Assembly: GCA_903857865.1 (NCBI GenBank)
Contig: CAIOGO010000014.1
Coordinates: 124,001-188,000 of the forward strand
Origin: an uncultured bacterium
Lineage (GTDB): Bacteria; Bipolaricaulota; Bipolaricaulia; UBA7950; UBA9294
DNA: 64,000 nucleotides
Reading direction: 5' to 3'
In this document: in pieces, positions 36,929-64,000 of the stretch
Layout of the letters: each line of letters opens with the position of its first letter
How positions within the stretch are numbered: position 1 is the first letter of the stretch
The notes under the pieces: model-generated
The model's input: only the letters and a program-made list of their open reading frames with translations
The model's database searches: none
What the model was told of the DNA's origin: nothing
Program-made: the position numbers and the translations under genes

Positions 36929-37075
36929 TTCCGTCCTCCTCGAAAGAACAGCCAGCTTCGGCCGTGCTACCTAGCAGCGACTAGTGGGGGGATTCGCGAC
37001 CTGGCAAGTCGACCCGCTCGTCGCCTCACCTTCCCTCCCACCACTATTCACGATTCCCACATCCCTAGATGCTCA

Positions 37076-37131: not shown

Positions 37132-37158
37132 GGACCAAAGGCAACGGGGTCTTGCGAT

Positions 37159-37510: not shown

Positions 37511-37718
37511 CCCTCGCGTCCACTCAGGGCATCGCCAGGTGCACCCCAAGCCTGAGCTGCAAGAACAAGGCCTTGACGCCGACGGCTTCGGCAGAACTTG
37601 ACGGTGAAGCCAATCGTCGCAGCTGCTACGCTGCGACGTGCTTGCTTGCGTGCCTGGCAGCCGCTAGCCTGTCTTTAGGATTCAAGGTACGTGGGTTAGT
37701 CGGGCGGAGGAGGGGGAT

Positions 37719-41284: not shown

Positions 41285-41707
41285 ATGGCCAAGAGACTCT
41301 CCGTCATCGACGTCGACCGTTGCGTCGGCTGTCAGCTTTGCATCTATGCTTGCGCCCGCCGTGAGGGTCATGCCGGGACGGAGGGCGCGCGCATCGACGT
41401 GCGATCGGCCGGCGGGATGCGCCGCGGGTTCGTCGTCATCGTCTGCCGCGCCTGCGACGATCCCCCGTGCGCGCGAGCTTGTACGACGGGAGCACTCGTT
41501 CCGCGGGACGGCGGGGGCGTTCGATGGGCCGCCGACCAGTGCACCGCCTGCGGCGCGTGTCGTGAGGCGTGCCCGTTCGGCGCGATCCAACGGGACAGCG
41601 AGGATCACCCGCTCGTCTGCGTCTACTGCGGCACCTGCGCCCGCTACTGCCCGCACGGCGTCCTCGCGCTCGAGGAGATTGAGAGGTCAGACGATGCTGC
41701 CCGGTGA
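41285..41707 (+). CDS. Poly-4Fe-4S ferredoxin paired with AOR
   Basis: A 140-aa iron-sulphur protein of the DmsB/CooF-like type with four cysteine groups: CVGCQLCIYAC, CRACDDPPCARAC, CTACGACREACP and CVYCGTCARYCP, enough for up to four 4Fe-4S clusters. It overlaps the downstream AOR gene by 14 bases, so it is almost certainly the electron-transfer subunit of that enzyme, as in WOR5-type or YdhY/YdhV pairs. The start at 41285 is chosen by similarity; an in-frame GTG at 41258 would add nine residues. The ribosome binding site is weak. Confidence 0.88.
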   Translation: MAKRLSVIDVDRCVGCQLCIYACARREGHAGTEGARIDVRSAGGMRRGFVVIVCRACDDPPCARACTTGALVPRDGGGVRWAADQCTACGACREACPFGAIQRDSEDHPLVCVYCGTCARYCPHGVLALEEIERSDDAAR

Positions 41708-48650: not shown

Positions 48651-48664
48651 ATTCCCTCCTCGGC

Positions 48665-49807
48665 CTAGATCGCGGTCGCCAGCCACTCGACTACGTCAAG
48701 CACGTCCACCGTCGACTTCGCACGTCGCTTGGCGTCAAGGAACGCAATCTGACACGCCGGGCAAGCGGAGAGAAGGAGGTCGGCCCCGGTGGCGACGGCC
48801 TCGTTCCACCGTGCCTGTTCGTTCTCGACCGCCATCGGCTCGTAGCCGAAGCGAACGAAGTCGCCGTTGCCGCAGCAGAACGAGCCCGCACCCGACCGGC
48901 GCATCTCCACGCGACGCGCCCCGGGCACGGCGTCGATGGCTCGGCGAGGCGCGTCGTAGATCCCGAGTCCGCGTCCCAGATTGCACGGGTCGTGATACAC
49001 GACGACGCGCGACTGCTTGCGGAGGCGGACGCTGCCAGCCGCCCTCCGCTCGCCGAGGAGCTCCGTCGCGTGGAGGACGCGGAATGGAAGCGGCCGGCCG
49101 AGCAGGTCGGGCACCTCTTCTCGGAACATCTGCAGACACCCGGGACAGGCGAACACCACCTGCGTCGCGCCCGACGCCTCGATCGCCGCAACGTTCTTGC
49201 CCGCAGCCTCTCTCGCCCCTTCGAGGTCGCCGACCGCCAGGTGCGGATGACCGCAGCAGACTTCGTCGTCGAGGAGCGCGAAGTCGACGCCGGCCGCCTC
49301 GAGCACCTGATATGCACCGCGCGCGATGCCGCGGCGCACGTAGGCGGGCGTGCAACCGACGAAGAAGACCGTCTCGGCCTTCTTCCCAACCCGGTCCGTG
49401 CCCGGCGCCCAACCGAGCCGCTTCCCGCGCGCCTGCCCGTATGGATTGCCGGCGTCGGCGACCGCGCGCCCGACGCCGGCGAGTTCTGCCGGAACGAGTT
49501 CGCGCTCCGCAAGATCGGCCTTCATCGCTCGATAGATGTCGAGCAGGGACAGATACTTGAAGCACTGCTCCTCGCACGCGCCGCACTCCGTGCACGCGTA
49601 GACGCGCATCGCCACATCGGCGTCGTACTCTAACACACCATCGACGAGCGCGCGAGCGATCGCCATCTTGCCCCGTGCCCCGTACGACTCCATGCCGTAT
49701 GTCACGTACGAAGGGCAGATCTTCTCCTGCCCTCCCACGGCGTGGTCGAAGCAGAAGCCGCACCGCAAGCAGCTGTAGATCTGGTTCGTGTAGACGGCCA
49801 GCCTCAT
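48665..49807 (-). CDS. Iron-sulphur oxidoreductase subunit, GlcF/HdrD-like
   Basis: A 380-aa protein. The N-terminal 4Fe-4S motifs are CLRCGFC...CP near residue 14 and CTECGACEEQC near 68. Two CCG domains follow, with CCGHPHL near 190 and CCGNGDFVRFG near 312. It pairs with the FAD protein encoded upstream; the genes overlap in ATGA. The pair forms a glycolate/D-lactate-dehydrogenase-type enzyme that passes electrons from an organic acid or alcohol to an acceptor. GAGGAGG precedes the start. Confidence 0.88.
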   Translation of the reverse strand: MRLAVYTNQIYSCLRCGFCFDHAVGGQEKICPSYVTYGMESYGARGKMAIARALVDGVLEYDADVAMRVYACTECGACEEQCFKYLSLLDIYRAMKADLAERELVPAELAGVGRAVADAGNPYGQARGKRLGWAPGTDRVGKKAETVFFVGCTPAYVRRGIARGAYQVLEAAGVDFALLDDEVCCGHPHLAVGDLEGAREAAGKNVAAIEASGATQVVFACPGCLQMFREEVPDLLGRPLPFRVLHATELLGERRAAGSVRLRKQSRVVVYHDPCNLGRGLGIYDAPRRAIDAVPGARRVEMRRSGAGSFCCGNGDFVRFGYEPMAVENEQARWNEAVATGADLLLSACPACQIAFLDAKRRAKSTVDVLDVVEWLATAI

Positions 49808-51222
49808 CGTTCCTCCTCGTCGATCAGGAGCCCGGGGTTCAGGATTCCGTTCGGATCCAGCATGCGCTTCATCGATTGGAGGAGTCCGTACGCCGTTCCC
49901 AGCTTGGGCATGATGTGAGGCGAGATGCCGGCGCCCAGCCCACCGGGACTCATCCGCCCTTCGGTGAACATGCGCTCCGCGACTTCGCTCCGAAGCTGCA
50001 TCCCGTACGCCCACGCGTCGGGCTGGCGCTCGTCGTAGAGCGTGTCGATCCACAGGTATGCCCCGTTGCGCGAGAAGTAGGCGTCGACGCCCTTCACGCG
50101 AATCCCGTGCGTCTCGAACTCGCGCTCGCGCTCCGCCTTCATCGTCCGGAAGAGCGCCACGGCGTCGGCGAGCCCGCGCGAGGAGACGAACCCGGCCACC
50201 TCGGGGCAGAAGAAGGGTCGATCACTGTAGTAAGGACCCGGAGCCGTATTGCGCAACCACGAGTACATGTGCTCTTGCCAGTAGTGGCGAGTCCCCTCGG
50301 CAGGACGCGGCCGCCCGCGGTGGGACTCGCAGATCGCCTCCGCCTCGCGGACACGTGCGTCGGCGGCTACCGCCCGATCGCGCACGACAACGTGCAGGAA
50401 GGCGTCGCCCTCCTCGCCCGTGGGCTTCGGCCCCCCGAACAGTCCGACGAGGAACGTCGCCGCACCCCGACCTTGGATGCCCGTCGCGGCCTCGACCGCG
50501 TCGCGATACTCGTCGAACGCGTAGAACCGGAAGAGCTCGCACTCAGGAATCCGCTGAATGCGATACACCACGCGCGTGATGATCCCAAGGATGCCGTAGG
50601 AGCCGATGAACGGTCCGGCCAGATCGGCGCCGTTCGCATTGCGTTCGATCGGCTCCGATGCCGGGTTGGCCCACGATCCGGTTCGCACCACGTCGCCGGT
50701 CGGCAGGACAACCTCGAGGGCGAGAACGTGGTCGCCCGTCATCCCGTACTCCGTGGCGCCGTGAGGTGTGGCATTGACCGCCACGGTTCCCCCGATCGTG
50801 CACGAGAACAGTCCTCCGCCACCGGGCACGCCAAGCTCCCATCCGTCGCGACGCAGATCGGCGTCGATTCCGTGCCAGATCGCGCCGGCCTGAGCCACCA
50901 CGAGGCGGGCGGCCGTGTCGATCCGCTCGACGCGGTTCATGCGCGTCGTCTCGAGCAGGATCACGCCGTCCTTCACTCCGCTCCCGAGGAACGTCGTCGC
51001 CCGCCCTCGCGTGTACAGCGGGTGCCGGTGGTCGTTCGCCCAGCGGACGATGGCCGACACCTCCTCCGTCGTCGCCGGGCGCACCACGACGCTCGGAATG
51101 CCGGCCTTGTCCGGCCCGCAATCCCGCGAGTAGCAGAGGCGGTCCACCAATCGGTCGGACACGTGCTCGGGTCCGACGATGGCGGCCAGCGCAGTAGCCA
51201 CGTTCTCACGCATACCGTTCAC
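49804..51222 (-). CDS. FAD-binding oxidase subunit, GlcD/D-lactate dehydrogenase-like
   Basis: A 472-aa flavoprotein of the VAO/PCMH family. The FAD-binding region has VVVRPATTEEVSAIV near 46, GRATTFLGSGVKDG near 73, PGGGGLFSCTIGGTVAVNA near 134 and GSYGILGIITRVVYRIQ near 208. The C-terminal domain ends with MLDPNGILNPG, typical of GlcD and Dld. The start is GTG at 51222 behind GAGGG; ATG at 51213 is an alternative. It overlaps both neighbours. Which alpha-hydroxy acid or sugar acid it oxidises is unknown. Confidence 0.88.
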   Translation of the reverse strand: MNGMRENVATALAAIVGPEHVSDRLVDRLCYSRDCGPDKAGIPSVVVRPATTEEVSAIVRWANDHRHPLYTRGRATTFLGSGVKDGVILLETTRMNRVERIDTAARLVVAQAGAIWHGIDADLRRDGWELGVPGGGGLFSCTIGGTVAVNATPHGATEYGMTGDHVLALEVVLPTGDVVRTGSWANPASEPIERNANGADLAGPFIGSYGILGIITRVVYRIQRIPECELFRFYAFDEYRDAVEAATGIQGRGAATFLVGLFGGPKPTGEEGDAFLHVVVRDRAVAADARVREAEAICESHRGRPRPAEGTRHYWQEHMYSWLRNTAPGPYYSDRPFFCPEVAGFVSSRGLADAVALFRTMKAEREREFETHGIRVKGVDAYFSRNGAYLWIDTLYDERQPDAWAYGMQLRSEVAERMFTEGRMSPGGLGAGISPHIMPKLGTAYGLLQSMKRMLDPNGILNPGLLIDEEER

Positions 51223-52537
51223 CCACCCTCTTCGCTTCGGCGAGCACGGCGCGCTCGTCGATCGTCACCATCATTCGGTCCTTCATCACCACGCGGCCAT
51301 TGATCACCACGGTTTCCACGTCGCCGGCACGGGCGCAATACACCAGCGCGGGCACGATCTCGTCCGTCAGCCGGAAGAGGTGTGCACCGCCCAGATCGAT
51401 CAGCACGACGTCGGCCAGCCGCCCTTCGTCGATCGTCCCCGAGTCGAGACGACACGCCTTCGCTCCACCTTCGGTCGCGAAGCGGAAGACGTCGCGCGCG
51501 CCGAGGACGGTCGGGTCCTGGGCGGCCACCTTCTGCAGCATGGCCGCGCAGCGCATCTCTTCGAACGGATCCAGGAGATCGTTGGATGCCGCGCCGTCCG
51601 TGCCAAGGGCGATGGCCGCTCCGGCGCGCCGCAGAGCCCCGATGGGCGCGATGCCGCTCCCGAGCTTCATGTTGCTCTTCGGGTTGTAGATCACGGCCAC
51701 ACCCCGCCGGGCCGCAAGCTCAATCTCCCCTTCCGTCAGGTGCACGCCGTGCGCGGCCGTGATCGGGCTCGCGAGGAATCCGATCGACTCGAGGTAGTCA
51801 AGCGGCGTCCTGCCCGTCAGCGACACCGATTGCTCCACTTCCCACGCCGTCTCCGACACATGCGTCTGGATCCCCAGGTCATGCTCGTCGGCACGCTCGC
51901 GGATCCACCGCAGGAGACCCTCGCTGCACGTGAACGGCGCCGAGGGGCCGAGGAACACGGTGACCAGAGGACTTTCCTTCGGCACCTGGTGCCACGTCTC
52001 GATCAGACGAACGGTGTCATCCTTCGTCTCGTTAAGCGAGACCATGACATCCTCGGGCACCCACTGGTCGACCAGGGTCATCGCCGCCACGCCGCGGATG
52101 CCGACCTCGAGCCACGCCGCGATGACGCCGTCCAGGTTCATGTCCATGTCGACGAACGTCGTGATCCCGCTCCGCACCATCTCGATCGTCGCCAGCATCG
52201 ACCACAGGCGACCGACCTCCTGCCGGCCGTGATGCCACGCGTCGTCCAGGACGCGCCGCACGAAGGGGAAGGTCACGGCGTCGCACCAATCGACAAGTGA
52301 GAGGTCGTCCCGCCGACCCTTGAGCATGGATTGATAGAGGTGCGTGTGGGCGTTCACGAATCCCGGCACGAGCGCACGCCCCTGCCCATCGAGCACGGTG
52401 GTCCCCGGCGCCAACCGGCGGGCATCGATCGAACCGATTCGAGCGATCCGAGCCCCATCGATCAAGACGTCGACGTCGCGCTCGACGCGATCCGCGTCCC
52501 GCACGAGATACGACACCCCACGAACGAGAATCATCAT
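51206..52537 (-). CDS. Amidohydrolase, SsnA/chlorohydrolase-like (first)
   Basis: A 443-aa metal-dependent deaminase or hydrolase of the SsnA/TrzN/MtaD group. Metal ligands: HTH in NAHTHLYQS near 68, His in QTHVSET near 235, His in AAHGVHL near 268 and Asp in LGTDGAASND near 318, all in place. It would deaminate or dechlorinate a purine, pyrimidine or triazine-like ring. It overlaps the PreA-like gene (ATGA) upstream and the FAD oxidase gene downstream, so it belongs in the middle of the operon. Unlike its paralogue at 53.6 kb its metal site is complete. Confidence 0.9.
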   Translation of the reverse strand: MMILVRGVSYLVRDADRVERDVDVLIDGARIARIGSIDARRLAPGTTVLDGQGRALVPGFVNAHTHLYQSMLKGRRDDLSLVDWCDAVTFPFVRRVLDDAWHHGRQEVGRLWSMLATIEMVRSGITTFVDMDMNLDGVIAAWLEVGIRGVAAMTLVDQWVPEDVMVSLNETKDDTVRLIETWHQVPKESPLVTVFLGPSAPFTCSEGLLRWIRERADEHDLGIQTHVSETAWEVEQSVSLTGRTPLDYLESIGFLASPITAAHGVHLTEGEIELAARRGVAVIYNPKSNMKLGSGIAPIGALRRAGAAIALGTDGAASNDLLDPFEEMRCAAMLQKVAAQDPTVLGARDVFRFATEGGAKACRLDSGTIDEGRLADVVLIDLGGAHLFRLTDEIVPALVYCARAGDVETVVINGRVVMKDRMMVTIDERAVLAEAKRVGERYA

Positions 52538-53586
52538 CCTCTCCCTTCCCAGACGAGCGCACCGGCGGGGCAGACAGAGACGCACAGGCCGCACTCGCGG
52601 CACGCCTCGCCGACGTCGGCAGGACTCCGCCGCGCCTGGTACGGACAGACGCGAACGCAAGCCTCACAATGGATGCAAGCCACCTCATCGAATCCCATTC
52701 GGACTCCTCGAGCTTCCTCCCATCGCGCGGCGCCGACGGCGTCCTCGATCGACGTGAGGCCGAACTCGTCCAAGCGATCGCTGAGATCGCCGCGCAGTCG
52801 GCGGAAGAGGTCGAGCCCGTGGACGAGCGCTCCGCTGCAGATCCCCACAGCACACGCTCCCGCGAGCAGCATTTCGACCGCCGTGTCGGCGTCCTCGACG
52901 CCACCCGTTCCGATGACAGGGACCGCCACGGCCTGGCGCACGGCGGCCACTGCATGGAGAGCGATCGGCAGAATGGCCGGCCCGGACAGCCACCCAGCCG
53001 TCGCGCCGAGGAGGGGGCGGCGGGTCCGCGGGTCGATGCGAAGCGCGGGTCCGACCGAGTCGATGACCGTGAGAGCGCTCGTTCCTCTCTCGACGCACGC
53101 GCGCGCCGTGCCCACGAGGTCACGACCGTTCGCGCTCAGCTTGGCAAACACCGGGATCCGAACGCGGCGCACGGCCGCATCGACCAGGCCGGGCAGCGTC
53201 GCCTCGTCGTACGAAACGACTTCCAGCGCGTCCGCGCCCGCCTCCTCGAGCGCCGCGGCAAGCGCCTCGACGTCGGCCGGCTCGAGCCCGACGCTCGCAA
53301 TCACCGGCACACCCGCATCCTTCGCGAGCGGGATCTCCCGCTTGATCCACTGGGCCGAATCGAGGTCCGACCAGCGCTCGGCGTTGAGGACTCCGCCTCC
53401 GACACGGACGAGGTGCGGCACCGGTTGAGTCGCCGCACGACGGCTGATCGTCTTCGTGACGACCGCAGAGGCGCCGGCGCAGTACGCGCGAACGATGGCC
53501 TCCCCATTCCAGGACAGCGGCCCCGACGCGAGAACCAGCGGGTGGTCGAGTTCGAGTCCACCCACGGCGGTGCGAAGGTCAGCCAC
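52534..53586 (-). CDS. Dihydroorotate-dehydrogenase-like oxidoreductase with two 4Fe-4S clusters (PreA-like)
   Basis: A 350-aa FMN protein with a TIM-barrel of the DHOD/dihydropyrimidine-dehydrogenase type. It has PLVLASGPL near 16, PVFAKLSANG near 146, VPVIGTGGVEDADTAVEML near 238 and GICSG near 265. A C-terminal double ferredoxin follows: CIHCEACVRVCP near 306 and CRECGLCVSVCP near 332. PreA, with PreT, reduces uracil and thymine; no PreT is seen here. The start is GTG behind AGAGGAG. Flanking amidohydrolases and the nearby dihydropyrimidinase gene suggest work on a pyrimidine- or purine-like ring. Confidence 0.88.
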   Translation of the reverse strand: MADLRTAVGGLELDHPLVLASGPLSWNGEAIVRAYCAGASAVVTKTISRRAATQPVPHLVRVGGGVLNAERWSDLDSAQWIKREIPLAKDAGVPVIASVGLEPADVEALAAALEEAGADALEVVSYDEATLPGLVDAAVRRVRIPVFAKLSANGRDLVGTARACVERGTSALTVIDSVGPALRIDPRTRRPLLGATAGWLSGPAILPIALHAVAAVRQAVAVPVIGTGGVEDADTAVEMLLAGACAVGICSGALVHGLDLFRRLRGDLSDRLDEFGLTSIEDAVGAARWEEARGVRMGFDEVACIHCEACVRVCPYQARRSPADVGEACRECGLCVSVCPAGALVWEGRG

Positions 53587-54916
53587 GGCTTTCTCCTCTC
53601 CAGAGCCGTTGGGCCTCGCGGCGCGCGCCCCCCCGCACCTCGACCTCGTCCATCGTCTGGACAACCCCGTCCCTCATCACATCCCGCCCCGCCACGATGG
53701 ACAACCTGACGTCGCCGCGACCGCGGAAGAGGACGAGCTGATCCAGGACGTTGCCTCGCGTGAGTGGGGTGTCGGTGGCAGCGTCGATGCCGATCACGTC
53801 GGCCGCTCGCCCCGACTCGAGCACGCCAACCTCGGGCCAGCCGACGGATGTCGCGCCCCACGCCGTCGCCATCGCGAAGACGGTGCGTGCGGGCATGACC
53901 GCGGCATCCGCGCGTGCACCCTTGTGGAGGAGAAACGCGCCGCGCATGACTTCGAAGGGATCGTTGATGTACCCGTCCGTCCCCAGCCCGGGCGAGAGAC
54001 CGCGGTCGATCATGCGCGGCACGGGGGCGATCCCTCCACCGACTTCGCAGTTGGAGAGTGGCATGTGGGCCATCCGGACGCGCCGCTCGGCCAGCCGCTC
54101 GATCTCTTCATCTGTCAGCGCAACGCCCTGCGAGGCGAGCACGGCTTCGTCCCACAACCCCAAGCGGTCGTACCAGAAGACAGGACGCTCGCCATGGCGG
54201 CGCAGGCACTCCTCAGGCTCGTAGGTGCTCTCCGAGAGATGGAGGTGCAGACCGCAGCCGGCTCGGGTGGCACTCTCCTTCGCCGCGAGGACGAAGCTCT
54301 CCGAACAAGTAAAACTCGTGTGCAAGCACTGCATGCCGCGAATGCGGCCGTCACTGCGCCGCGCTCGAGCGAACCGCTCGTTCTCGTCCAGCGCCCTCCG
54401 TCCAACCTCCGTACCGTGGCGCTCCGACGCTTCGAGGCAGAGCACGGCGCGCACGCCGGCACGCTCGACCACAGCGGCCTCCAGATCGAGGATGCCGGCC
54501 TCGGAGAACGGCGCCTCGAGCACGTCACAGAACGTCGTGAACCCCGAGCGGATCATGTCGACGCACGCAAGCGCGGTCGCCGCCCCGATCATGGCCCCGT
54601 CGAGACGGTCTTCGACCCGCGGCCACCAGAAGTCGGCGAGAAAGCGGTCGAAGCCCCTCGGCGGTTCCCCGACGAGCGGGATCCCGTGAGCAAGGCGGCC
54701 GTACGCGTGCTCGTGCGCGTTCACAAATCCTGGGCAAAGAACGAGGTCCCCCGCATCCGTGACCTCGGCGCCTCCCGCACGGGAGAGCAGATCCTCGTTG
54801 GGGCCAAGCGCGACGAGGACTCCGTCCTCGATCAGGATGCCCCAATTCTCTTCCAACGCGGCGCCAGCGCCCGCGAGAACCGCTCCACCGAGCACGATGC
54901 GCCTAGCCACCGCCAT
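53579..54916 (-). CDS. Amidohydrolase, SsnA/chlorohydrolase-like (second, altered metal ligand)
   Basis: A 445-aa paralogue of the 51.2-kb amidohydrolase. HEH in NAHEHAYG near 71, His in LHLHLSES near 235 and Asp in GTDGYINDP near 315 are kept. The third metal His is Gln (Q263 in ASQGVAL; the paralogue reads AAHGVHL), so metal binding or mechanism may differ. It starts behind a weak GGGGGT site and overlaps the AOR gene by 14 bases. It may act on a related ring or have a non-catalytic part in a complex. Confidence 0.86.
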   Translation of the reverse strand: MAVARRIVLGGAVLAGAGAALEENWGILIEDGVLVALGPNEDLLSRAGGAEVTDAGDLVLCPGFVNAHEHAYGRLAHGIPLVGEPPRGFDRFLADFWWPRVEDRLDGAMIGAATALACVDMIRSGFTTFCDVLEAPFSEAGILDLEAAVVERAGVRAVLCLEASERHGTEVGRRALDENERFARARRSDGRIRGMQCLHTSFTCSESFVLAAKESATRAGCGLHLHLSESTYEPEECLRRHGERPVFWYDRLGLWDEAVLASQGVALTDEEIERLAERRVRMAHMPLSNCEVGGGIAPVPRMIDRGLSPGLGTDGYINDPFEVMRGAFLLHKGARADAAVMPARTVFAMATAWGATSVGWPEVGVLESGRAADVIGIDAATDTPLTRGNVLDQLVLFRGRGDVRLSIVAGRDVMRDGVVQTMDEVEVRGGARREAQRLWRGESRG

Positions 54917-56816
54917 ACCCCCACAGCGCCCGGCCGGCATCTCCGAGGCCCAATCGATCGAGCGTGGCCGCCGTCGGCCACCCCGTCACCAAGTCCCAAC
55001 CGCGCAGGGCGTAGTACTCGTCGAGCATCTTCGGCGCGTGCGCAACCTGACCCCGCGCGCCGCGCGCCGGCGATGGCTCGGCCGTCATGCGCTCGGGCAG
55101 ACGGTCGTCGGCCCGCCCGATGCCAAGGCGCGCGTTATAGGCTCGCGCCAGGTTGACGATGCGCTCGCCGATCGCCCTCAACTCCTCCTCGTCCAACGCC
55201 CACCCGGTGGCCAGCCGGAGGCCGGCGGCGATCTCAGGCCAGTAGATCTCGGCCATCACGAACGTCCCGCCTGACTTGCACACGCCGACCGAGTCGACGA
55301 CCGCGCCGAAGTCCTCGCCATCCTTGACCAGAAATGGCTTGTGCCGCGTTGCGTGAGGATCCGCCATCTCGGGAAGGAACTGCGGGCCGTAGCGCCGCAA
55401 GACCTCCGCAGCGCTCCCCGTTTCATCGACCGTCGGGAACGCCTTCAAGTGGTCGGCGCCGCGATTCGACGTCATGTGCGCCAGGCCCATGGACTGCTGC
55501 GCGCGCCCGTCTTGCGCCGGGATCTCCATCCCTTTGACTTCCATCGCGTAGGGCCGCGCAGCGGCGCCGAACGCCGCGGCCGCCCGCCGCACGCCTTCGG
55601 CCAGCACGTCGCCGACGCCCTCGCGGGTCGCAATGCGCTCCACGAGAGAGAGGATCGTCTCGACGTTGCCCCACGTCGCGTCCAGGCCGTCGAGATCGCC
55701 GCGCGTCAGGATGCCTCGCTGGACGAGCTCCATCGCGAAACCAATCGCGCGGCCCGTCGAGATCGTGTCCATCCCCAAGCGGTCGCAGCGATCGCTCGCG
55801 AACAGGATCGCTTCCAGATCGGCGTTCCCGAGGCCCGCGCCGAACGCGTTCAGCGTTTCGTACTCCACGCTCGACGTCTCGAGGCCGGCGAAGCGTCCCG
55901 CGTCGATTCGGTACACCTTGTCGCACCGCACGGGGCACGCGAAGCACCCGGTGTCTCGAACGAAGTACCGCTCGCGCAGGGTCTCGCCGCTGATCTCCTC
56001 GGCCTTCGCAAACTCCCCATCCTGGAAATTGCGCGTCGGGAACCGACCGATCTCGTTCACGACGCGCACGAGACCCGGGGTCCCGAAGCGGGAGCACGCC
56101 GGGAACATGGCGTTGGCGCGAAGTCGCGCGTGCAGGCTCTGAGCCAGTTCGATGAATCCGGCGCGGTCCACGAAAGGCACGCGCTTCGAGCCCGAGACGG
56201 CGATCGCCTTGAGCCGCTTCGCGCCCATCACGGCGCCGAGCCCGCAGCGACCGAAGCTGCGATTCGGCGTCGCCTGGATGGAGGCAAAACGAACGCCGCG
56301 CTCCCCGGCCGGCCCGATTGACGCCACCTGAAGGGCGGGGGCAGCATACCGGTCACGGAGAGCGGCCTCCGTCTGAATCGTGTCGAGTCCCCAGACGTCG
56401 CCCGCGTCGTCGATCGCGGCCACGCCGTCGGCGATCCGCAGCACGACGGGCGCATCGGACGAGCCACGCACGACCACAGCGTCATACCCAGAGAACTTGA
56501 GACCCGGACCGAAGGTTCCACCGGCGTTCGAGTCTCCGTAGATGCCCGTGAGCGGCGACCGGGCGATGGCCTCGGTGCGCCCCGAGCACGGCCACGCCGT
56601 TCCCGTCAGCGGCCCGGTCGCCACGATGAGGACGGCGTCCGGCGACAACGGATCCACGTCGGGTCCCACTTCATCCCACAGGACCTTCGCGCCGAACCCG
56701 CTCCCGCCGAGGTAGGCGCGGGCGAGCGTAGGGTCGAGAGGCCGCGCCTCGAGGCGTCTTGAGGAGAGGTCGACGTGGAGCACCCGGCCGACGTAGCCAC
56801 CGCGCGCACGCGTCAC
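54903..56816 (-). CDS. Aldehyde:ferredoxin oxidoreductase (second of tandem pair)
   Basis: A 637-aa tungsten-pterin enzyme. The 4Fe-4S ligands are C291, C294 and C298 in CFACPVRC and C513 in VGVCKSGG. The N-terminal domain has HVDLSSRRLEARP, LTGIYGDSNAGG and GRCGLGAVMGAKRLKAIA; the centre has GLETSSVEYETLNAFG. It oxidises aldehydes to acids and reduces ferredoxin. The GTG start overlaps the upstream AOR's stop (GTGA) with GGGAGG upstream, giving two AORs in tandem that may form a heteromer or act on different aldehydes. Confidence 0.92.
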   Translation of the reverse strand: MTRARGGYVGRVLHVDLSSRRLEARPLDPTLARAYLGGSGFGAKVLWDEVGPDVDPLSPDAVLIVATGPLTGTAWPCSGRTEAIARSPLTGIYGDSNAGGTFGPGLKFSGYDAVVVRGSSDAPVVLRIADGVAAIDDAGDVWGLDTIQTEAALRDRYAAPALQVASIGPAGERGVRFASIQATPNRSFGRCGLGAVMGAKRLKAIAVSGSKRVPFVDRAGFIELAQSLHARLRANAMFPACSRFGTPGLVRVVNEIGRFPTRNFQDGEFAKAEEISGETLRERYFVRDTGCFACPVRCDKVYRIDAGRFAGLETSSVEYETLNAFGAGLGNADLEAILFASDRCDRLGMDTISTGRAIGFAMELVQRGILTRGDLDGLDATWGNVETILSLVERIATREGVGDVLAEGVRRAAAAFGAAARPYAMEVKGMEIPAQDGRAQQSMGLAHMTSNRGADHLKAFPTVDETGSAAEVLRRYGPQFLPEMADPHATRHKPFLVKDGEDFGAVVDSVGVCKSGGTFVMAEIYWPEIAAGLRLATGWALDEEELRAIGERIVNLARAYNARLGIGRADDRLPERMTAEPSPARGARGQVAHAPKMLDEYYALRGWDLVTGWPTAATLDRLGLGDAGRALWGYGGG

Positions 56817-58669
56817 GCCGTCCTCCCGTCCGAGAGCCCGAGCCGCACCAGGGTCGTCGGCGTCGGCAACCCGTCCTCGCCCCACCCGCGGAGCCGGTAG
56901 TACTCGGCCAGCATGTCCGGAAGCGAGTCGATCCGTCGCTCGTCGTGGGCCTCGCCGTGCGCGACGGGCAGCGGCTCCTGTGTGAATCGCTCCGGCAACC
57001 GGTCATGAGTGGCATCGACGCCAAATCGAGCGTTGAGCAACCGCTCGAGGTTGACGATGCGCTCTCCGACCTCCAGGAGCCCATCGGCGTCCAACGCGAG
57101 TCCCGCCGCGGTGACGGCCTCAGCCAAGTGCGCGGGGTCGAGCGCGTAGACCTCCGTCGTGGTGAATTTGCAGACACCGAGCGCGTCGGAGACCGCACAG
57201 TAGTCCTCACCGAACCGCACCAGCGCAGGCTTCGTCGCCTCGTCGGCGGGGTCGAGAACGCGCGGGTAGACGGTGGGCAGCAGGCGCCGAGCCGCCGCGT
57301 CCAGCCCGGCGACGTCGATCGTCGGCAGCGCGTACAGGTGGTCGGCGCCGCGGTTCGACGTCGCATGTCCCAGTCCGAACGCCTTGGCCACCCGCGGCTC
57401 CTGCCCAGGAATCTCGAGCCCCTTGACGTGAAGCGCGTAGGGAATCGCCGCAGACCCGATCTCCTTTGCCGCGGCCCGGACGCCGCGGCAGAGGAGTTCG
57501 CCGATCCCTTCGCGACGCGCGATCCTCTCGACCAGCGCGACAATCGTGTCTCCCCGCCCCCACGAGAGATCGACAGATTCGTCATCCAACAACCCGCGTT
57601 CGTGGCACTCCATCGCGAACGCGATCATGGCCCCGACGGAGATCGTGTCCAGCCCGAGTTCGTTGCACAGCGCGTTCGCGTGAAGAATGGCCTCAAGGTC
57701 GCCGCACCAGCAGTTGGCGCCCAGCGCGTCCAAGGTCTCGTACTCCGGCCCGGCGCTGCGTGAACGGTGCACGCCAGAGTTCACCTCGGAGATTCGGCCG
57801 CAGCGGATCGGGCAGCCGGGGCAGCCCTTGGTCTCAACCCGGTACAACTCGAGGGCGTCTGCATCGATCGCGTCGCCGAACGGGACTTGCCCGAGTCGAT
57901 GGTTCATCGCCGGCAGATCTCCGCTCGCGTTCTTGATCCCGACGAGGAACGGCGTCCCCCAGCGCAACAGGTCGCGCACTCCGGGCGTCGCGAGAATCCG
58001 CTGCGTCGCGGCCCGAGATCGCGCCAGGAAACCTGACGGAAACCGCGGCCAGCGACCGCCGTCGACCACGATGGCCTTCACGTTCTTGGCGCCCAGCACC
58101 GCGCCCCCGCCGCACCGCGCCGCGGCGCGCCCGCCGTCGACCATGACCGCCGCCAGCGGCACGCCGCGCTCACCCGCGGGCCCAATGCACGCAACCGCGG
58201 CCGCCGTCCCCTTGCGCAACGCTTCCGTCGCCTCAGGCACTCGGGACCCCCAGAGACGCCCCGCCGCCTCGAGGCGGATGCCGGACTCGTCGACTCTGAT
58301 CACGCTCGGTTCTGGGGCGCACCCCACCAAAACGAGGGCGAGGATCCCGTGCGCCGTCAGGCGCGGCCCGAAGGATCCCCCGGCGTTGGCGTATCCGTAG
58401 ATGCCTGTGAGCGGCGATCGAAATGCCATGTGAACGCGCGACGACGCGGGCCACGGACTGCCGTTGAGCAGGCCAGCACCCATGACGAACGGAGCCTCCG
58501 GATCGAGCGCATCGTGCTGCCAGAAGGCCCGTTCTTCGAGGAGGCGCACAGCCACGCCACGCCCGCCGAGGTACGCCCGGCGCGATGCCTCGTCTTGCCT
58601 CTCTTCGCGCAGCCTCCCGTCTGTCAAATCGACGGTGATCACGCGCTGGGGAAAGGGACTACCGCTCAT
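56813..58669 (-). CDS. Aldehyde:ferredoxin oxidoreductase (first of tandem pair)
   Basis: A 618-aa AOR-family enzyme. 4Fe-4S ligands C283, C286 and C290 in CPGCPIRC and C500 in LGVCKFTT. It also has TVDLTDGRLREE, LTGIYGYANAGG and the AARCGGGAVLGAKNVKAIVV block. It begins behind GGAGGGC and overlaps the Mch-like gene by 11 bases. It differs from its tandem partner in the region after the Fe-S cluster (NSGVHRSRSAGPEYETLDALG), suggesting a different substrate. It is directly linked to the Mch- and Ftr-like genes. Confidence 0.91.
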   Translation of the reverse strand: MSGSPFPQRVITVDLTDGRLREERQDEASRRAYLGGRGVAVRLLEERAFWQHDALDPEAPFVMGAGLLNGSPWPASSRVHMAFRSPLTGIYGYANAGGSFGPRLTAHGILALVLVGCAPEPSVIRVDESGIRLEAAGRLWGSRVPEATEALRKGTAAAVACIGPAGERGVPLAAVMVDGGRAAARCGGGAVLGAKNVKAIVVDGGRWPRFPSGFLARSRAATQRILATPGVRDLLRWGTPFLVGIKNASGDLPAMNHRLGQVPFGDAIDADALELYRVETKGCPGCPIRCGRISEVNSGVHRSRSAGPEYETLDALGANCWCGDLEAILHANALCNELGLDTISVGAMIAFAMECHERGLLDDESVDLSWGRGDTIVALVERIARREGIGELLCRGVRAAAKEIGSAAIPYALHVKGLEIPGQEPRVAKAFGLGHATSNRGADHLYALPTIDVAGLDAAARRLLPTVYPRVLDPADEATKPALVRFGEDYCAVSDALGVCKFTTTEVYALDPAHLAEAVTAAGLALDADGLLEVGERIVNLERLLNARFGVDATHDRLPERFTQEPLPVAHGEAHDERRIDSLPDMLAEYYRLRGWGEDGLPTPTTLVRLGLSDGRTA

Positions 58670-59660
58670 GGCGCCCTCCGTCAGCTCGCCCGAGAGCGGA
58701 AGCCAGGAGCTCAACGTCGACGGCACCCGCCGACGCCACTCGGCCGGTCGTACGGTCCACGAGCGTGATGCAGGCGACCTTGTTCAGATCGGATAACCCG
58801 GGGATGGCCTCGAACACGCCGCCGGCCTCTGCCAAGAGCTCCGAGAAGAGGCGCCCATAGGTGGGCGACGAGCGGAAGACGAGAGCCTCGGCAGTAGCTC
58901 TCAGGTCCCAACTCGGCGCAGCCTCGACGATCATCGTCACCCGCCCGGCGTAGTGGATCATGTCATCCTGCGTCACCACGGGAATGCCTCGACCGCCACA
59001 AGGGGCGAGCGGCACGGCGCCGAGAATGCTGACGACGCAGCGCGGATCCAGCCCGATGGACTGGTCGAGCGTGAACAAGACGCACTCGTTCAGCCGTCCG
59101 GCGAGCTGAGCCACGCCAGCCAAGCTGTTCGACGGGACCACGACGAGCGTCAGCTCCGCGGGCCGAAGTCCGGCCCGCCGCGCGATCGCCTCGACGACGT
59201 CCGCGTTCGGCAGGCGCGTCGCCTCAACGACGGCCACGCCCCAGGAGCAGACGCCGTCGACAAGGTCCGACGGCCGATCTAGTTGGCCGTCCATGCAGGC
59301 GCGCACGGGTCCGGAGACGCGAATCGCCGCGTCCACTTCGTCAAGAGCGAAGGAAACTTGCAGTCCATGGATAGAGAGGAAGGGTCGCCACGAGCCGCCG
59401 ACCAACTCGGGAAGCGGGATGCCTAGGACGTCCGTCATGCCCAGCGTCGCCTTCATCATGCCCCCATGCGCAAGCTCCGCGACGCGTCGTCCGGCCTCCC
59501 ACGACCCCCGCGTGGCGACGCCGCAGTCCAGGATGAGCGCCCCGGCGTGGCCTGGCCGGACGTCGACCTCGAGAACCGGCGCGTCTTCAACCAGCGACCG
59601 AACGAGCGCCGCAGTCCGGGCACCAGCCCACTCCTGTTCCGCGCTGCTCCAGCCCGCCAT
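58659..59660 (-). CDS. mch: Methenyl-H4MPT cyclohydrolase (Mch) homologue
   Basis: A 333-aa protein matching Mch along its length. LILDCGVATRGSWEAG (residues 42-57) corresponds to the family's DCGVxxxGSxEAG start; VSGPVRA (115-121) to the SGPARA loop; EATRLPNADVVEAIA (146-160) to the LPN helix; and VVPSNSLAG (174-182) to VAPTASIAG. The catalytic Arg and Glu, spaced RxxE in the archaeal enzyme, are present as R189 and E192. It should interconvert methenyl- and formyl-groups on a tetrahydromethanopterin-like carrier. It starts behind GGGAGG, 12 bases after the Ftr-like gene ends. The overall divergence suggests an altered substrate. Confidence 0.86.
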   Translation of the reverse strand: MAGWSSAEQEWAGARTAALVRSLVEDAPVLEVDVRPGHAGALILDCGVATRGSWEAGRRVAELAHGGMMKATLGMTDVLGIPLPELVGGSWRPFLSIHGLQVSFALDEVDAAIRVSGPVRACMDGQLDRPSDLVDGVCSWGVAVVEATRLPNADVVEAIARRAGLRPAELTLVVVPSNSLAGVAQLAGRLNECVLFTLDQSIGLDPRCVVSILGAVPLAPCGGRGIPVVTQDDMIHYAGRVTMIVEAAPSWDLRATAEALVFRSSPTYGRLFSELLAEAGGVFEAIPGLSDLNKVACITLVDRTTGRVASAGAVDVELLASALGRADGGRHER

Positions 59661-59672
59661 CTCGCCTCCCGC

Positions 59673-60587
59673 CTAGCGGTCCTCGGTCGGAACGACGTCG
59701 CGCAGGGCCAGCTTGCGGCCGCCCCATGCTCCCTCGAACGACGGGGCCGTGATCCCGACGATGCCCGACGTTCGAGCGAAGGCGTCGATGGCTACGCGCA
59801 GGCCGATTCGCATCGCGTCGACCGACGTCGCGACGAGGGGGAACTCGATGACGGAATCTACGTCCGCCGGGACCTTCGTCGCCACCCGCCCTCGAAGCGA
59901 TGGGCAGAAGGGCTCGTTGATCGTCACACCCTCGCCCTTGTAGCGGGTCCCGCCCACCTTGGCGCCGCTGATGCCGCCGACCGGGTAGTTGAACACCGCC
60001 ACGCCCGGCGCGTCCCGCACGACGCACGCCGCCGCTTCCATTGCGCCCATCAGGCAAGCCGCCTCGTTTTGCCCGAACACCTCGAGGACGCCGTCGGTTC
60101 CCGCCACGACGTGAACGCGTCGCTCGATGAACTGATTGCCGGTCATGATCGGGATCCGAACCACCTCGCGCTCGCCTACACGGTCCAGCGCCTCGTACCC
60201 GTCACCCCATCGCGACACCCGCGCAGCCAGGTCGACGACCCACTCCACCGGCCCGTTCGCACCGCCGTCGAAGAGCGAACACGTCGGAAGGTGAGGAAAG
60301 ATGTACAGACGGTCGAGCAGCGCCTTCTTGAACGTCTCCAGACCGACCGCCGTCGGGGCATTGAGTTGGAGCGCGACGCCGCTTCGCCCATCCGGGGTTG
60401 CGGACGACGCGACGAACCCATCGATGCACCCCTGGATCGGCGCCGCGGTGATGATCCCGAACCCGCACAGGTAGCTCGCCTCGGCCATCGCGACGGCTTC
60501 GGTCGCCGCGGTGAGAATGAGGCGGGCGGTGTACAAGTCGGTGCACTCGCAAAACGTGTCCTCAATCTCGATCCCTCGGTATCTCAT
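59673..60587 (-). CDS. ftr: Formylmethanofuran:H4MPT formyltransferase (Ftr) homologue
   Basis: A 304-aa protein close in length to Ftr (about 296 aa). The N-terminus has the hallmark GIEIEDTF (5-12). Further matches are TPDGRSGVALQLN (64-76), LLDRL (90-94), WGDGYE (127-132), ESQPAG-like GQNEAACLM (172-180), GGISGAKVGGTRYKG (204-218), INEPFCP (223-229) and a C-terminal RIGLRVAIDAFARTSGI (260-276). It transfers a formyl group between a methanofuran-like and a pterin carrier. No FhcA/B/C partners are seen in the window. The start overlaps the AcoX-like stop (ATGA) behind AGAGGAG. Confidence 0.9.
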   Translation of the reverse strand: MRYRGIEIEDTFCECTDLYTARLILTAATEAVAMAEASYLCGFGIITAAPIQGCIDGFVASSATPDGRSGVALQLNAPTAVGLETFKKALLDRLYIFPHLPTCSLFDGGANGPVEWVVDLAARVSRWGDGYEALDRVGEREVVRIPIMTGNQFIERRVHVVAGTDGVLEVFGQNEAACLMGAMEAAACVVRDAPGVAVFNYPVGGISGAKVGGTRYKGEGVTINEPFCPSLRGRVATKVPADVDSVIEFPLVATSVDAMRIGLRVAIDAFARTSGIVGITAPSFEGAWGGRKLALRDVVPTEDR

Positions 60588-61624
60588 CCGTTCTCCTCTC
60601 GCTCCATCTCTCCACGAGGCGAAGCCGCCCGTCGGATCGATACGACGGCACCCTCGACCGTGCTTAGCGACACTATCGCCGCGGGAGACGCCGCGCAACG
60701 CGGTGTCCCGTCAACCACGAGCGCGGATCCCAGCCGGAAGCCGCCCATCTCCACGACGTCACCGGGCGCCAGTCCCAGATGGAAGATCCGCAGAGGCTCG
60801 GCGGCCTCGAGATCGTTCCGACCGAGCCGGGTCCGAATCATGAGCGCACTCGCCGCCGCCACGACTCCCAGGCAGCCAACGTACGGCCCCCAACAGAGAA
60901 GCCCGCTCACGGCTTTGCCCCGGCAGGCGTCCGTGTCATTGAGCGGCGATGCGACGATCTGTCCCCCCTCGAGCTCAGCGCCCGCAAGTAGCCGTCTCCC
61001 GTTCTTCGCAATCCACGTCGCCTGTCCGCACGCTGAGATTGGATCAGCCGTTCGGTCCTCGCCGCGAAGCCCCGCCGCCGCATCCAGATCTACGCGCCGC
61101 CCGCAGCGCGTGCCGAAGAACGTGTTCGCAACCGTCGCATCGTGGAACGCCAGCCCCACCTTCACCCCGTCGAAGCGCACCTCGAGGGCGTGCACCGGGA
61201 CATCGGCCCACGACGAGGCAAGGAACCCATCGAGTTCCACGGCCGTGGTTCCGACGAGAGGCCCCACATTGGACGACCCGACGCCGACGCCGAGCAGGCG
61301 AACCACTGATCCAGCCGAGGAGAGAACGCTGCCGATGTCGCCCAGCGTGCCGTCGCCCCCAACGCCGATCACCGTGTCCACCCCCGCCTCAAGGAGTTCT
61401 CTCGTCAGGCCGCAGGCGTCGCCCACCGGGCCGCGGACCTTCCGACAATCCAGGCCGCACGCGTCCGCCGCAGCGGCCTCGAACGTGTCGGCAACGAGGA
61501 CCACGTCCCGCTCCCGGAGCGCAGGCAGCAGGCGAGCGAGGATGCCCTGCAGCGCGTCGGGCCCGGCGCCCGCGCAGGGGTTGGCGATGACGCCGATTCG
61601 GCCAAGATGCTGGCAGGCACTCAC
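60584..61624 (-). CDS. AcoX/ATP-NAD kinase-like protein (COG3199 type)
   Basis: A 346-aa protein with a kinase-type fold. It starts IGVIANPCAGAG near residue 10 and carries the diacylglycerol/NAD-kinase loop GVGGDGTLGDIG (87-98). The C-terminal domain is beta-rich, as in AcoX and predicted polyphosphate/ATP-NAD kinases. The phosphorylated substrate is unknown: NAD, or a metabolite of this pathway. The GTG start overlaps the permease stop (GTGA) behind GGGAGGAG, and its stop overlaps the Ftr-like start. Confidence 0.82.
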   Translation of the reverse strand: MSACQHLGRIGVIANPCAGAGPDALQGILARLLPALRERDVVLVADTFEAAAADACGLDCRKVRGPVGDACGLTRELLEAGVDTVIGVGGDGTLGDIGSVLSSAGSVVRLLGVGVGSSNVGPLVGTTAVELDGFLASSWADVPVHALEVRFDGVKVGLAFHDATVANTFFGTRCGRRVDLDAAAGLRGEDRTADPISACGQATWIAKNGRRLLAGAELEGGQIVASPLNDTDACRGKAVSGLLCWGPYVGCLGVVAAASALMIRTRLGRNDLEAAEPLRIFHLGLAPGDVVEMGGFRLGSALVVDGTPRCAASPAAIVSLSTVEGAVVSIRRAASPRGEMEREENG

Positions 61625-62448
61625 TTGATCGCTCCTCCCGTCAGCCCGGAAACCAAGTACCGCTGCCCGAGCAGAAACAGCACGAACACGGGAATCGTGA
61701 CCAGGAGGGCGGCAGCCGACAGCGGGCCCCATTGCACAACTCCGCCCGACCCGAGGAAACGGGCGAGATACACGGGCAGCGTCCAGGTCTCGTTCGTCCG
61801 CATGATGACGAGGGCAAAGAAGAACTCGTTCCAGGAGAGAAGCAGCGAGAACGTCGCCACCGCCAGGAGACCCGGCACGGAGAGCGGGAGGATGATGCTC
61901 ACGAGCGCCCGTAGGCGCGTGCAGCCGTCAATCCTCGCCGCCTCCTCCAAGTCGATGGGGATCTTGTCGAAGTACCCCTTGAGGAGCCAAATCGAAAACG
62001 GAAGAGCAAAGCTCGTGTGCATGATCACGAGCCCCGGCAGCGTGTTGATCAGTCCGTACACCTTCAAGACCGTGAACAGCCCAAGCACCATGATGATTCC
62101 GGGAAACGCCTGCGTCGCCAGGAGCCACATCGAGAACGCCGTCCGCCCACGGAACTTGAACCGCGACAGGGCGTAGCCGGCCGGCGCGGTTACGATGATG
62201 GCGAGAATCACGGTCGAGAACGCGACGATGGCCGAGTTCCGAAGGTTGATCAGGAACGTGCCCCCTGTAATGACCGTGCGGAAATTGTCCCAGGTCACTC
62301 CGTGCGGAATTCCCATCGGAGACTCGAAGATCTGGGTCTGAGTCTTGAGGGAGTTGAACACGAGGAGGAGGAGGGGGAACACGAGGAAGGCGATCATCAC
62401 GAGGACGGCGACGTGGAGGAGGACTTGCTTGAACGGATGCATCCTCAT
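61621..62448 (-). CDS. ABC transporter permease, MalG/CUT1 type
   Basis: A 275-aa permease with six transmembrane helices (about 12-34, 72-95, 105-130, 138-160, 185-207, 240-262). The cytoplasmic EAA loop reads EEAARIDGCTRLRALVSI near residue 185. It belongs to the carbohydrate-uptake (CUT1) family that imports sugars, glycosides or polyols, with a permease partner encoded upstream and overlapping by 4 bases. The ATPase and binding protein are not in the window and may lie beyond its right edge. Confidence 0.92.
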   Translation of the reverse strand: MRMHPFKQVLLHVAVLVMIAFLVFPLLLLVFNSLKTQTQIFESPMGIPHGVTWDNFRTVITGGTFLINLRNSAIVAFSTVILAIIVTAPAGYALSRFKFRGRTAFSMWLLATQAFPGIIMVLGLFTVLKVYGLINTLPGLVIMHTSFALPFSIWLLKGYFDKIPIDLEEAARIDGCTRLRALVSIILPLSVPGLLAVATFSLLLSWNEFFFALVIMRTNETWTLPVYLARFLGSGGVVQWGPLSAAALLVTIPVFVLFLLGQRYLVSGLTGGAIK

Positions 62449-63335
62449 TGCAGCACCTCACGGATGTACAGGACGACGACGCTCAGCAAGATGAGCAGGA
62501 TGATGATGCCGATCGCCGCGCCGTATCCGGCCTGCTGCGAGCCGTACGCCCAGGTGTAGGCGTAGAGGGGGAGCGTCATCGACGCGTTGGCCGGTCCCCC
62601 TCTGGTCAAGACGTAGACGATGTCAAACGAGTTGAACGTCCAGATCGACTCCAAAGTGAGAATGATGAGGATGACCTTCTTGATGCTCGGAACGACAATC
62701 CGCAATTGCGTCTGCAAGTAGCTCGCGCCGTCGATGGCCGCCGCCTCGAGAATGTCTCCTTCGAGCGACTGCAGCCCAGCGAGGATCATGATCGTGACGA
62801 ACGGAATTCCCATCCAGATGTTGGCAATGATGCACGTCCACAGGGCGAGGTGTGTATCGATGAGCCACGCTGGGAGGTGGATCACACCAAGCCCCGAGAG
62901 GGCGGTGTTGAGTGGCCCGCCGGAGAGAAAGATGTACCGCCAGATGAGTGACACGACGACGCCGGGCAGAGCCCAGGGAATAAGCGTGACGGTCCGGAAC
63001 GCACGACGGAAGCGAAGATGCCGCGAGTTGAGCATCGTAGCCAAGATGTAGGAAACGAAGAACATCGCGGCGACGCTGGTCACGGTCCAGACGAGGCTGT
63101 TGAGGAGTGCGCGGATGAAGACGGGGTCGCGGAAGAGAAGAACGAAGTTCTGCAGACCGGAGTAGACGTTCTTCCCCGTCAGCGCACGGAAGGAGTAGAA
63201 GACGCGGGAGATGCCCTGAGCCAAAGGATACAGGCTCACGAAGCACAGGACGGCGAGGGCGGGTGCCACGAACGGCAGGGCCCGCTTCTCCTCGAGGAAG
63301 GGTCGCCGCGCGTTCGCGGACCTACTGGTCTTCAT
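62445..63335 (-). CDS. ABC transporter permease, MalF/UgpA type
   Basis: A 296-aa permease with six transmembrane helices (about 22-42, 80-105, 113-135, 160-185, 210-232, 267-290). The EAA loop EAAAIDGASYLQTQLRIV lies near residue 197. It forms the heterodimer with the MalG-type partner encoded downstream. The start at 63335 overlaps the dehydrogenase gene by 14 bases. Context suggests uptake of the substrate of this operon, plausibly a nucleoside or other glycoside. Confidence 0.92.
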   Translation of the reverse strand: MKTSRSANARRPFLEEKRALPFVAPALAVLCFVSLYPLAQGISRVFYSFRALTGKNVYSGLQNFVLLFRDPVFIRALLNSLVWTVTSVAAMFFVSYILATMLNSRHLRFRRAFRTVTLIPWALPGVVVSLIWRYIFLSGGPLNTALSGLGVIHLPAWLIDTHLALWTCIIANIWMGIPFVTIMILAGLQSLEGDILEAAAIDGASYLQTQLRIVVPSIKKVILIILTLESIWTFNSFDIVYVLTRGGPANASMTLPLYAYTWAYGSQQAGYGAAIGIIILLILLSVVVLYIREVLQ

Positions 63336-64000
63336 CGAAACGGATCACCGTCTTCAGCGCGTCAGGCTCCGCGGCCCGAGCGAACGCCCCTGCGGCGTCG
63401 GCAAAGGGCACCGACGCCGTGACCACGCCGTCCAGCGCTCCGGGATGCTGTCCCATCCACGCCACGGCGTCTCGAAAGTGGCGAACCTGGAATCCGAAAC
63501 TTCCCGCGACCGTCACCTCGCGGTAGTGGATGGCAAAGGCGTCCAGCGCGAGCCGCTCGCCCTTCGGGAGGCCACCGAAGAGGAGCGCCGTGCCCCCCGA
63601 CGCCGTCCAGCCGATGGCTCCCTCAGCGACGGAACGGTCGCCCACGGCGATCAGGACCCGATCGGCCTCGGGCGCACCGAACGCCGCGGTCAGCGCTTCG
63701 CCCAGCGGCATCTCGATGGGATCGACGACCGCGAGTCCGAGGCGACGAAGATGCTCTGTTCGTGCCAAGCTCACCTCGCTGATCAGGACTCTTGGGGTCA
63801 GCGTCCGCGCCACCAAGGCCAAGAGAGCGCCCATGGGTCCACCCCCAACGACGAGGATTCGATCGCCCGAGCGCACGCACGCACGCTCGATCCCGTTCAT
63901 CGCACACGCCAGCGGCTCGGCCAGCGTGGCGACGGCGTCGGACATCCCGTCAGGAACCTTGAACGTACCCCGGGCGATCACGTCATGAGGCACGATCAGG
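63322..64000 (-). CDS. Zinc-type alcohol/sorbitol dehydrogenase-like protein, cut at the right edge
   Basis: The C-terminal 225 residues of a medium-chain dehydrogenase; the gene continues beyond the window. The visible part starts just after the catalytic domain: KVPDGMSDAVATLAEPLACA (typical substrate-side sequence), then the Rossmann loop GDRILVVGGGPMGAL and the last strands to FDEDQ. The N-terminal zinc-ligand part is outside, so metal binding cannot be checked. The type resembles sorbitol or threonine dehydrogenases. It overlaps the permease gene by 14 bases and is the first visible gene of the operon. Confidence 0.85.
   Translation of the reverse strand, partial: LIVPHDVIARGTFKVPDGMSDAVATLAEPLACAMNGIERACVRSGDRILVVGGGPMGALLALVARTLTPRVLISEVSLARTEHLRRLGLAVVDPIEMPLGEALTAAFGAPEADRVLIAVGDRSVAEGAIGWTASGGTALLFGGLPKGERLALDAFAIHYREVTVAGSFGFQVRHFRDAVAWMGQHPGALDGVVTASVPFADAAGAFARAAEPDALKTVIRFDEDQ

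Follow-up and report, generated by a model that had tools for sequence, protein, structure and literature searches.

Divergent relatives of Ftr and Mch in a conserved Bipolaricaulota operon without H4MPT genes: a candidate route of riboside catabolism

The formyltransferase Ftr and the cyclohydrolase Mch, with which methanogens and methanol-consuming bacteria hand on one-carbon (C1) units, commonly serve as markers of C1 metabolism dependent on tetrahydromethanopterin (H4MPT). Mch hydrolyses the five-membered cyclic formamidine ring in methenyl-H4MPT. Cyclic nitrogen compounds are also opened during the breakdown of purines; in the urate pathway, oxidation of C8 precedes its loss as a ureido group. 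In the reductive uric acid pathway, XdhD is followed by SsnA with either YgfK or the ferredoxin-type UacX, and these by HyuA; YgeW/YqeA, YgeY and YgeX are further parts (PMC12507026). Bipolaricaulota is not among the phyla listed in that work. Here we analysed a stretch of 64,000 nucleotides (the window; positions 124,001 to 188,000 of contig CAIOGO010000014.1, assembly GCA_903857865.1) from an uncultured member of this phylum. It encodes a divergent, phylum-level branch of Ftr and Mch that lies in a conserved operon and in a genome free of H4MPT genes; this is the firmest result of the analysis. Our literature searches returned nothing on an Ftr/Mch pair in Bipolaricaulota or Acetothermia. 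The two genes are:

59673..60587, minus strand: Ftr-like protein of a divergent formyltransferase subfamily (304 amino acids, ATG start; Pfam FTR and FTR_C, PDB relatives, fold, E248)
58659..59660, minus strand: Mch-like protein of a divergent cyclohydrolase subfamily (333 amino acids; Pfam MCH, PDB relatives, fold, R189/E192)

Both genes are complete and are spaced by 12 bp. The Ftr-like gene starts at the ATG at 60587 and overlaps by 4 bp the stop of the preceding gene, which encodes a kinase-fold protein and is conserved upstream of Ftr. Pfam matches covered both lobes of the Ftr-like protein (FTR, E = 2.4e-23, 83.1 bits against a gathering cut-off of 27; FTR_C, E = 5.3e-19, 69.2 bits against 25) and the whole of the Mch-like protein (MCH, E = 2.2e-47, 162 bits against 25). 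The closest solved structure to the former was M. barkeri Ftr (E = 4e-35), 1qlm was a solved relative of the latter (E = 1.5e-26), and the nearest solved structures for both were all genuine Ftr or Mch. AlphaFold models matched these folds over their full length: the Ftr-like model (predicted local distance difference test score, pLDDT, 78) had a template modelling (TM) score of 0.81 to 1ftr/1m5s, and the Mch-like model (pLDDT 89) one of 0.83 to solved Mch. A first-pass annotation of the window had described adjacent, near full-length relatives of Ftr and Mch, and these comparisons bear it out. Against the NCBIfam equivalog models, both proteins scored roughly between one half and two thirds of the cut-offs (146.8 versus 292.6 for TIGR03119; 140.8 versus 228.8 for TIGR03120). 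Judged by sequence, they are thus relatives of canonical Ftr and Mch and not standard members.

The catalytic residues that we mapped were conserved. R189 and E192 of the Mch-like protein aligned to R183 and E186 of A. fulgidus Mch, which we take to be the catalytic pair, and were kept in 12/12 family members; one variant in the solved Mch set carries Gln in place of Glu186. E248 of the Ftr-like protein corresponds to E245 of M. kandleri Ftr, presumably an important residue of that enzyme, and was invariant in the ten family members aligned. The R189/E192 pair and the Ftr segments GIEIEDTF and GGISGAKVGG, all read by the first-pass annotation, are present, the two segments amid many altered canonical-invariant residues. 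Seventy positions were invariant in ten canonical Ftr sequences; 28 of them were kept in the family, 20 had switched to another invariant residue and 22 were variable. For Mch, the corresponding 46 positions were divided into 20 kept, five switched and 21 variable, and in both proteins the mapped catalytic residues belonged to the kept set. The SQ(K/Y)AGW stretch of Mch was altered and one residue shorter in 12/12 Bipolaricaulota members, and TND had become DD. Loss of Lys94 alone was considered as a marker of the changed Mch and dropped, since proteobacterial Mch have Tyr at this position; the family signature is the altered, shortened stretch. The residue pattern fits, short of proof, a retained reaction chemistry with altered partners, and the two enzymes have probably kept their chemistry and apply it to a substrate that is new to them.

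The same substitutions could also mark paralogues that have departed from C1 chemistry, with scaffolds that now bind or transform different cyclic compounds of the pathway and transfer no formyl group. This is what replacement of 20 of 70 canonical Ftr invariants by other invariant residues, scores far under the equivalog cut-offs and an operon without partner C1 genes might lead one to expect. The counterparts of Mch R183/E186 and Ftr E245 are invariant in the family, however, and the enzymes of two consecutive steps were retained together, which makes a joint loss of their shared chemistry less likely. We consider such a departure rather unlikely.

The Ftr-like protein was found in 13 of the 100 Bipolaricaulota genomes searched and the Mch-like protein in 12, every one of them Ftr-positive. 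When about 85,000 species genomes were scanned with two short subfamily patterns, which would miss divergent relatives, 12 loci emerged, matching the genomes already found in the phylum; by these patterns, the subfamily is provisionally restricted to Bipolaricaulota. Because the pair recurs in 13 independent metagenome-assembled genomes with conserved gene order, chance and contamination are ruled out. In midpoint-rooted trees of 20 to 22 sequences (the Mch tree also with haloarchaeal sequences), each protein formed a single Bipolaricaulota clade with 100/100 support, outside the archaeal, methylotroph and proteobacterial sequences, and so did not fall inside ordinary methylotroph clades.

The window is part of a contig of 225 kb, in a Bipolaricaulota genome that measures 2.24 Mb and is 91% complete. 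Ftr and Mch are present there in single copy, both at this locus. We searched 96.5% of the bases of this genome (72 kb of contig C18 and four tiny contigs were read as N and left out) with 24 H4MPT and methanofuran proteins from annotated Azospirillum and Azoarcus clusters. Two queries matched, Ftr and Mch, both at this locus. There was no match in the searched part to Fae, MtdB (searched by tblastn, in the window genome only), FhcABC, RFAP synthase, MfnB or an MptN-type protein, and RFAP synthase and FhcC were found in 0/13 Ftr-bearing genomes. The first-pass annotation had reported no Fhc, Fae or Mtd genes nearby; this was confirmed for the window and, within the limits of the assembly, for the genome as well. 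Because no genes for biosynthesis of these cofactors were found, an H4MPT-type carrier is unlikely, and so is transfer of formyl groups between methanofuran and H4MPT in vivo. Family membership and fold would be in keeping with an ordinary H4MPT/methanofuran module whose cofactors are scavenged or made by undetected genes. Given the missing genes and the fully supported placement of both proteins outside the archaeal and methylotroph clades, we regard this as very improbable. The survival of the pair in genomes without H4MPT means that these markers can mislead, and that the pair of folds can be re-used.

C1 metabolism in the Ftr-bearing genomes appears, from gene content, to be folate-based: formyl-tetrahydrofolate (formyl-H4F) synthetase was present in 12/13 and FolD in 11/13, and the window genome has both. 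5-Formyl-H4F cyclo-ligase (PF01812) was found in none of the 13, compared with 11 of 14 control genomes, and FTCD formiminotransferase in eight of the 13. FTCD is known elsewhere to substitute for the cyclo-ligase, and T. maritima, one of the controls, likewise has FTCD and lacks the cyclo-ligase. We therefore did not count the absence of cyclo-ligase in support of our preferred reading, set out below. Because FTCD occurs in 8/13 genomes, we rejected the notion that the pair makes up for a missing FTCD. In several genera, the FTCD gene adjoins mur/fts cell-wall and cell-division genes (G000:C4:132338-133225; L212; L213; L214).

These data bear on a scheme in which the pair acts on folate only. 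The Ftr-like protein would put a formyl or formimino group from an N-formyl catabolite on N5 of H4F, and the Mch-like protein would close 5-formyl-H4F to 5,10-methenyl-H4F without ever touching the catabolite. Both enzymes would keep their type of reaction and the methanogenic order of steps, the genomes are H4F-based, and with no cyclo-ligase in 13/13, 5-formyl-H4F needs another exit. FTCD could be that exit in eight genomes, and the change and shortening of the SQ(K/Y)AGW stretch in 12/12 members also speak against the scheme, which we judge unlikely.

The surrounding operon offers further evidence on the substrate. Its genes, and the convergent hydantoinase gene at its end, are:

upstream of the window (locus L017): binding protein, metallophosphatase, LacD/LsrF-type aldolase and LacI
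63322..63993, minus strand: zinc alcohol/polyol dehydrogenase, truncated at the end of the window
62445..63335, minus strand: ABC transporter permease 1 (BPD_transp_1)
61621..62448, minus strand: ABC transporter permease 2 (BPD_transp_1)
60584..61732, minus strand: kinase of the NAD-kinase/diacylglycerol-kinase fold (weak Pfam DAGK_cat match; YegS only at E = 0.07)
56813..58726, minus strand: tungsten aldehyde ferredoxin oxidoreductase family protein (AOR) 1 (AFOR_N/AFOR_C)
54903..56885, minus strand: AOR 2 (AFOR_N/AFOR_C)
53579..54940, minus strand: AmH1, SsnA-related amidohydrolase, below the SsnA cut-off
52534..53664, minus strand: PydA/UacX-type reductase (dihydroorotate-dehydrogenase domain and 2[4Fe-4S], no FAD domain)
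51206..52660, minus strand: AmH2, amidohydrolase of the MTA/SAH deaminase, 8-oxoguanine deaminase and triazine hydrolase group
49804..51222, minus strand: GlcD-like FAD-linked 2-hydroxyacid dehydrogenase
48665..50053, minus strand: GlcF-like iron-sulfur/CCG protein, true start probably further inside the open reading frame
47271..48686, minus strand: ADP-ribosylglycohydrolase-family protein, proposed N-ribosidase (Pfam E = 1.9e-46; metal motifs NDDT and DTDC kept)
46375..47358, minus strand: ribokinase (TIGR02152, 303.3 bits, above the equivalog cut-off of 299.65)
45005..46378, plus strand: dihydropyrimidinase/hydantoinase-like (HyuA-like) amidohydrolase (TIGR02033, 385.9 versus a cut-off of 393.25)

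The HyuA-like protein is 38% identical to E. coli HyuA and has a complete metal centre; the hydantoinase copy in another genome, G032, exceeds the TIGR02033 cut-off. Searched against Rfam, the window and four loci yielded no riboswitch. A third AOR-family gene lies near the operon on the opposite strand (window 41346-43463); G070 and G071 likewise have one adjoining their hydantoinase gene. Immediately upstream of the operon are two xanthine-dehydrogenase-family complexes (L017:15359-19999 and L045:3-3498), adjoining genes that resemble indolepyruvate oxidoreductase and those of an ADP-forming CoA ligase and a HisC-like aminotransferase.

A tightly packed set of genes around the pair is conserved across eight genera, wherever contigs allow. 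One block comprises LacI, the LacD/LsrF-type aldolase, the metallophosphatase, the sugar-type binding protein, the polyol dehydrogenase, two permeases, the kinase, Ftr, Mch, AmH2, GlcD, GlcF, the ADP-ribosylglycohydrolase-family protein and ribokinase; the other comprises the two AORs, AmH1 and the PydA-like reductase, with the hydantoinase at the end. The order of the blocks differs between genera. The reductase gene adjoins AmH1 in every genome that has both on one contig. Orthologues of the ADP-ribosylglycohydrolase co-occur by genome with Ftr; two apparent exceptions, G006 and G011, were dropped as cases without Ftr/Mch, since both operon contigs stop before the Ftr/Mch position.

Several of these genes would suit a pathway mainly for a sugar or sugar acid, with Ftr and Mch active in a minor side reaction or on an N-formyl sugar: the sugar-type ABC importer and binding protein, the LacI regulator and the LacD/LsrF-type aldolase, and also the polyol dehydrogenase, AORs, GlcD/GlcF and ribokinase. 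Against this, the three amidohydrolases and the PydA/UacX-like reductase need a nitrogen heterocycle, and they recur with the pair. A mainly sugar-directed operon is therefore quite unlikely in our view. A more distant relative, G001, has a ribokinase 59% identical and a LacI 57% identical to those of the operon, and a related ADP-ribosylglycohydrolase, beside a PnrA/Bmp-type ABC transporter. This transporter family is known for uptake of purine nucleosides, so that the neighbourhood indicates an N-riboside substrate. In this locus (L211:7336-15616), the G+C content at third codon positions (GC3) is low, about 0.44, in the genes for the ADP-ribosylglycohydrolase, the ABC permease, the ATPase and Bmp, which lie between a high-GC3 ribokinase and LacI, possibly as a horizontal insertion.

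Together, the ribokinase, the ADP-ribosylglycohydrolase, the hydantoinase and the UacX/SsnA-like pair suggest that the substrate of the Mch-like protein may be a catabolised heterocycle rather than a cofactor. With moderate confidence, we take the operon to serve the catabolism of an N-riboside (nucleoside-type) compound. Our leading reading, held tentatively and with somewhat less than even confidence, is that the Bipolaricaulota-specific branch of Ftr and Mch was recruited into an operon for import and degradation of an N-riboside, with a purine-type nucleoside as the likeliest candidate, where the Mch-like protein opens a cyclic formamidine and the Ftr-like protein moves the formyl group to H4F. 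A purine as the base, the order of Mch before Ftr and H4F as the acceptor are each weakly indicated.

According to this reading, the ADP-ribosylglycohydrolase-family protein, as an inferred N-ribosidase, would release the base from ribose, and ribokinase would phosphorylate the ribose. Deamination, dearomatisation and opening of the base would be the task of the amidohydrolases and of the UacX-like ferredoxin reductase, after the manner of the reductive purine pathway. If the base has H instead of oxo at C8 (or C2), that carbon would then sit in a cyclic formamidine, by analogy a counterpart of the methenyl-H4MPT ring. The Mch-like protein would hydrolyse it to an N-formyl amine, and the Ftr-like protein would pass the formyl group to H4F. 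The presence of Mch and Ftr in addition to a purine-type gene set could be explained because a C8-H base would yield first the cyclic formamidine and then a formyl group for folate. FolD and formyl-H4F synthetase could convert formyl-H4F to formate with gain of ATP; oxidation of an aldehyde by the AORs could supply reduced ferredoxin, and glycolate, for GlcD/GlcF, could derive from cleavage of ribose.

A number of observations weigh against this reading. In G032, which is 83% complete, the Ftr-like protein is present and Mch was not found. A hydantoinase occupies the Mch position there, which is suggestive of replacement; it could also be a relocated AmH3 gene. AmH1 scored 237 against an SsnA cut-off of 455, and one conserved SsnA active-site His is Gln. 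The binding protein of the ABC transporter belongs to the sugar (MalE-like) type and not to a nucleoside type, and the reading finds only a loose place for the AORs, GlcD/GlcF and the kinase. FTCD, where present, could already transfer formimino or formyl groups to H4F. Finally, urate-type genes of a more standard kind form a cluster elsewhere in the window genome, apart from the operon, which may thus serve another base.

The first-pass annotation had proposed a C1 unit carried by a pterin-like cofactor in an undescribed catabolic route. The pair does stand outside any H4MPT module, in the genome and across the family, in a catabolic operon for which we found no description, and an undescribed route is plausible; carriage by a pterin is no more than a possibility. 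The features of the operon that speak for riboside catabolism had escaped that annotation. The full proposal, an undescribed anaerobic route for a riboside of purine (or a similar heterocycle) in which an Mch-type cyclohydrolase opens the ring at its C1 carbon and an Ftr-type transferase salvages the formyl group onto folate, is possible but doubtful. If true, enzymes of methanogenesis would have been re-used to dismantle a nucleobase, and a widespread uncultured sediment phylum would have a new way of breaking purines, with the C1 unit recovered as energy.

Two further loci in the window deserve mention. At 35069-40541, an AAA ATPase (AriA/Old/GajA-like) and a SIR2-domain protein (ThsA/Dsr-like) are encoded side by side and may form an anti-phage defence island, and at 25371-33450 a UvrD-type helicase, a ResIII-type helicase and an N4/N6 DNA methylase follow each other in a possible restriction-type locus.

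Compared with known systems, the Ftr-like protein shares with Ftr/FhcD the two-lobe fold over its full length, about 30% identity and E245, but it forms a separate clade, scores below TIGR03119 and occurs in a genome without methanofuran or H4MPT genes. The Mch-like protein has the fold of Mch and its R183/E186 pair, and differs in its separate clade, the shortened SQ(K/Y)AGW stretch, the change of TND to DD and a score below TIGR03120. FTCD is a logical counterpart of the pair, with transfer of a group to H4F followed by ring closure; its sequence is unrelated, and true FTCD exists separately in 8/13 genomes. The E. coli fbaB-yegTUV genes likewise bring together a transporter, an ADP-ribosylglycohydrolase, a PfkB kinase and a class I aldolase. 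An orthologous relationship with yegTUV was rejected at 23-24% identity.

As to the reductive uric acid pathway, the window genome carries XdhD (43%), SsnA (36%) and YgfK (39%) on contig C20 (277673-295810), and YgeW, YqeA (47%), a HyuA-like enzyme and an XdhA-family protein on contig C6 (40526-48166). The operon itself resembles the pathway in having a UacX-type reductase beside an SsnA-related amidohydrolase, and a HyuA-like hydantoinase. It differs in that its SsnA relative is divergent and that none of YgeW/YqeA or UacY, YgeY and YgeX is found in it (YgeW and YqeA have matches on another contig), and in the addition of Ftr, Mch, the candidate N-ribosidase, ribokinase and the AORs.

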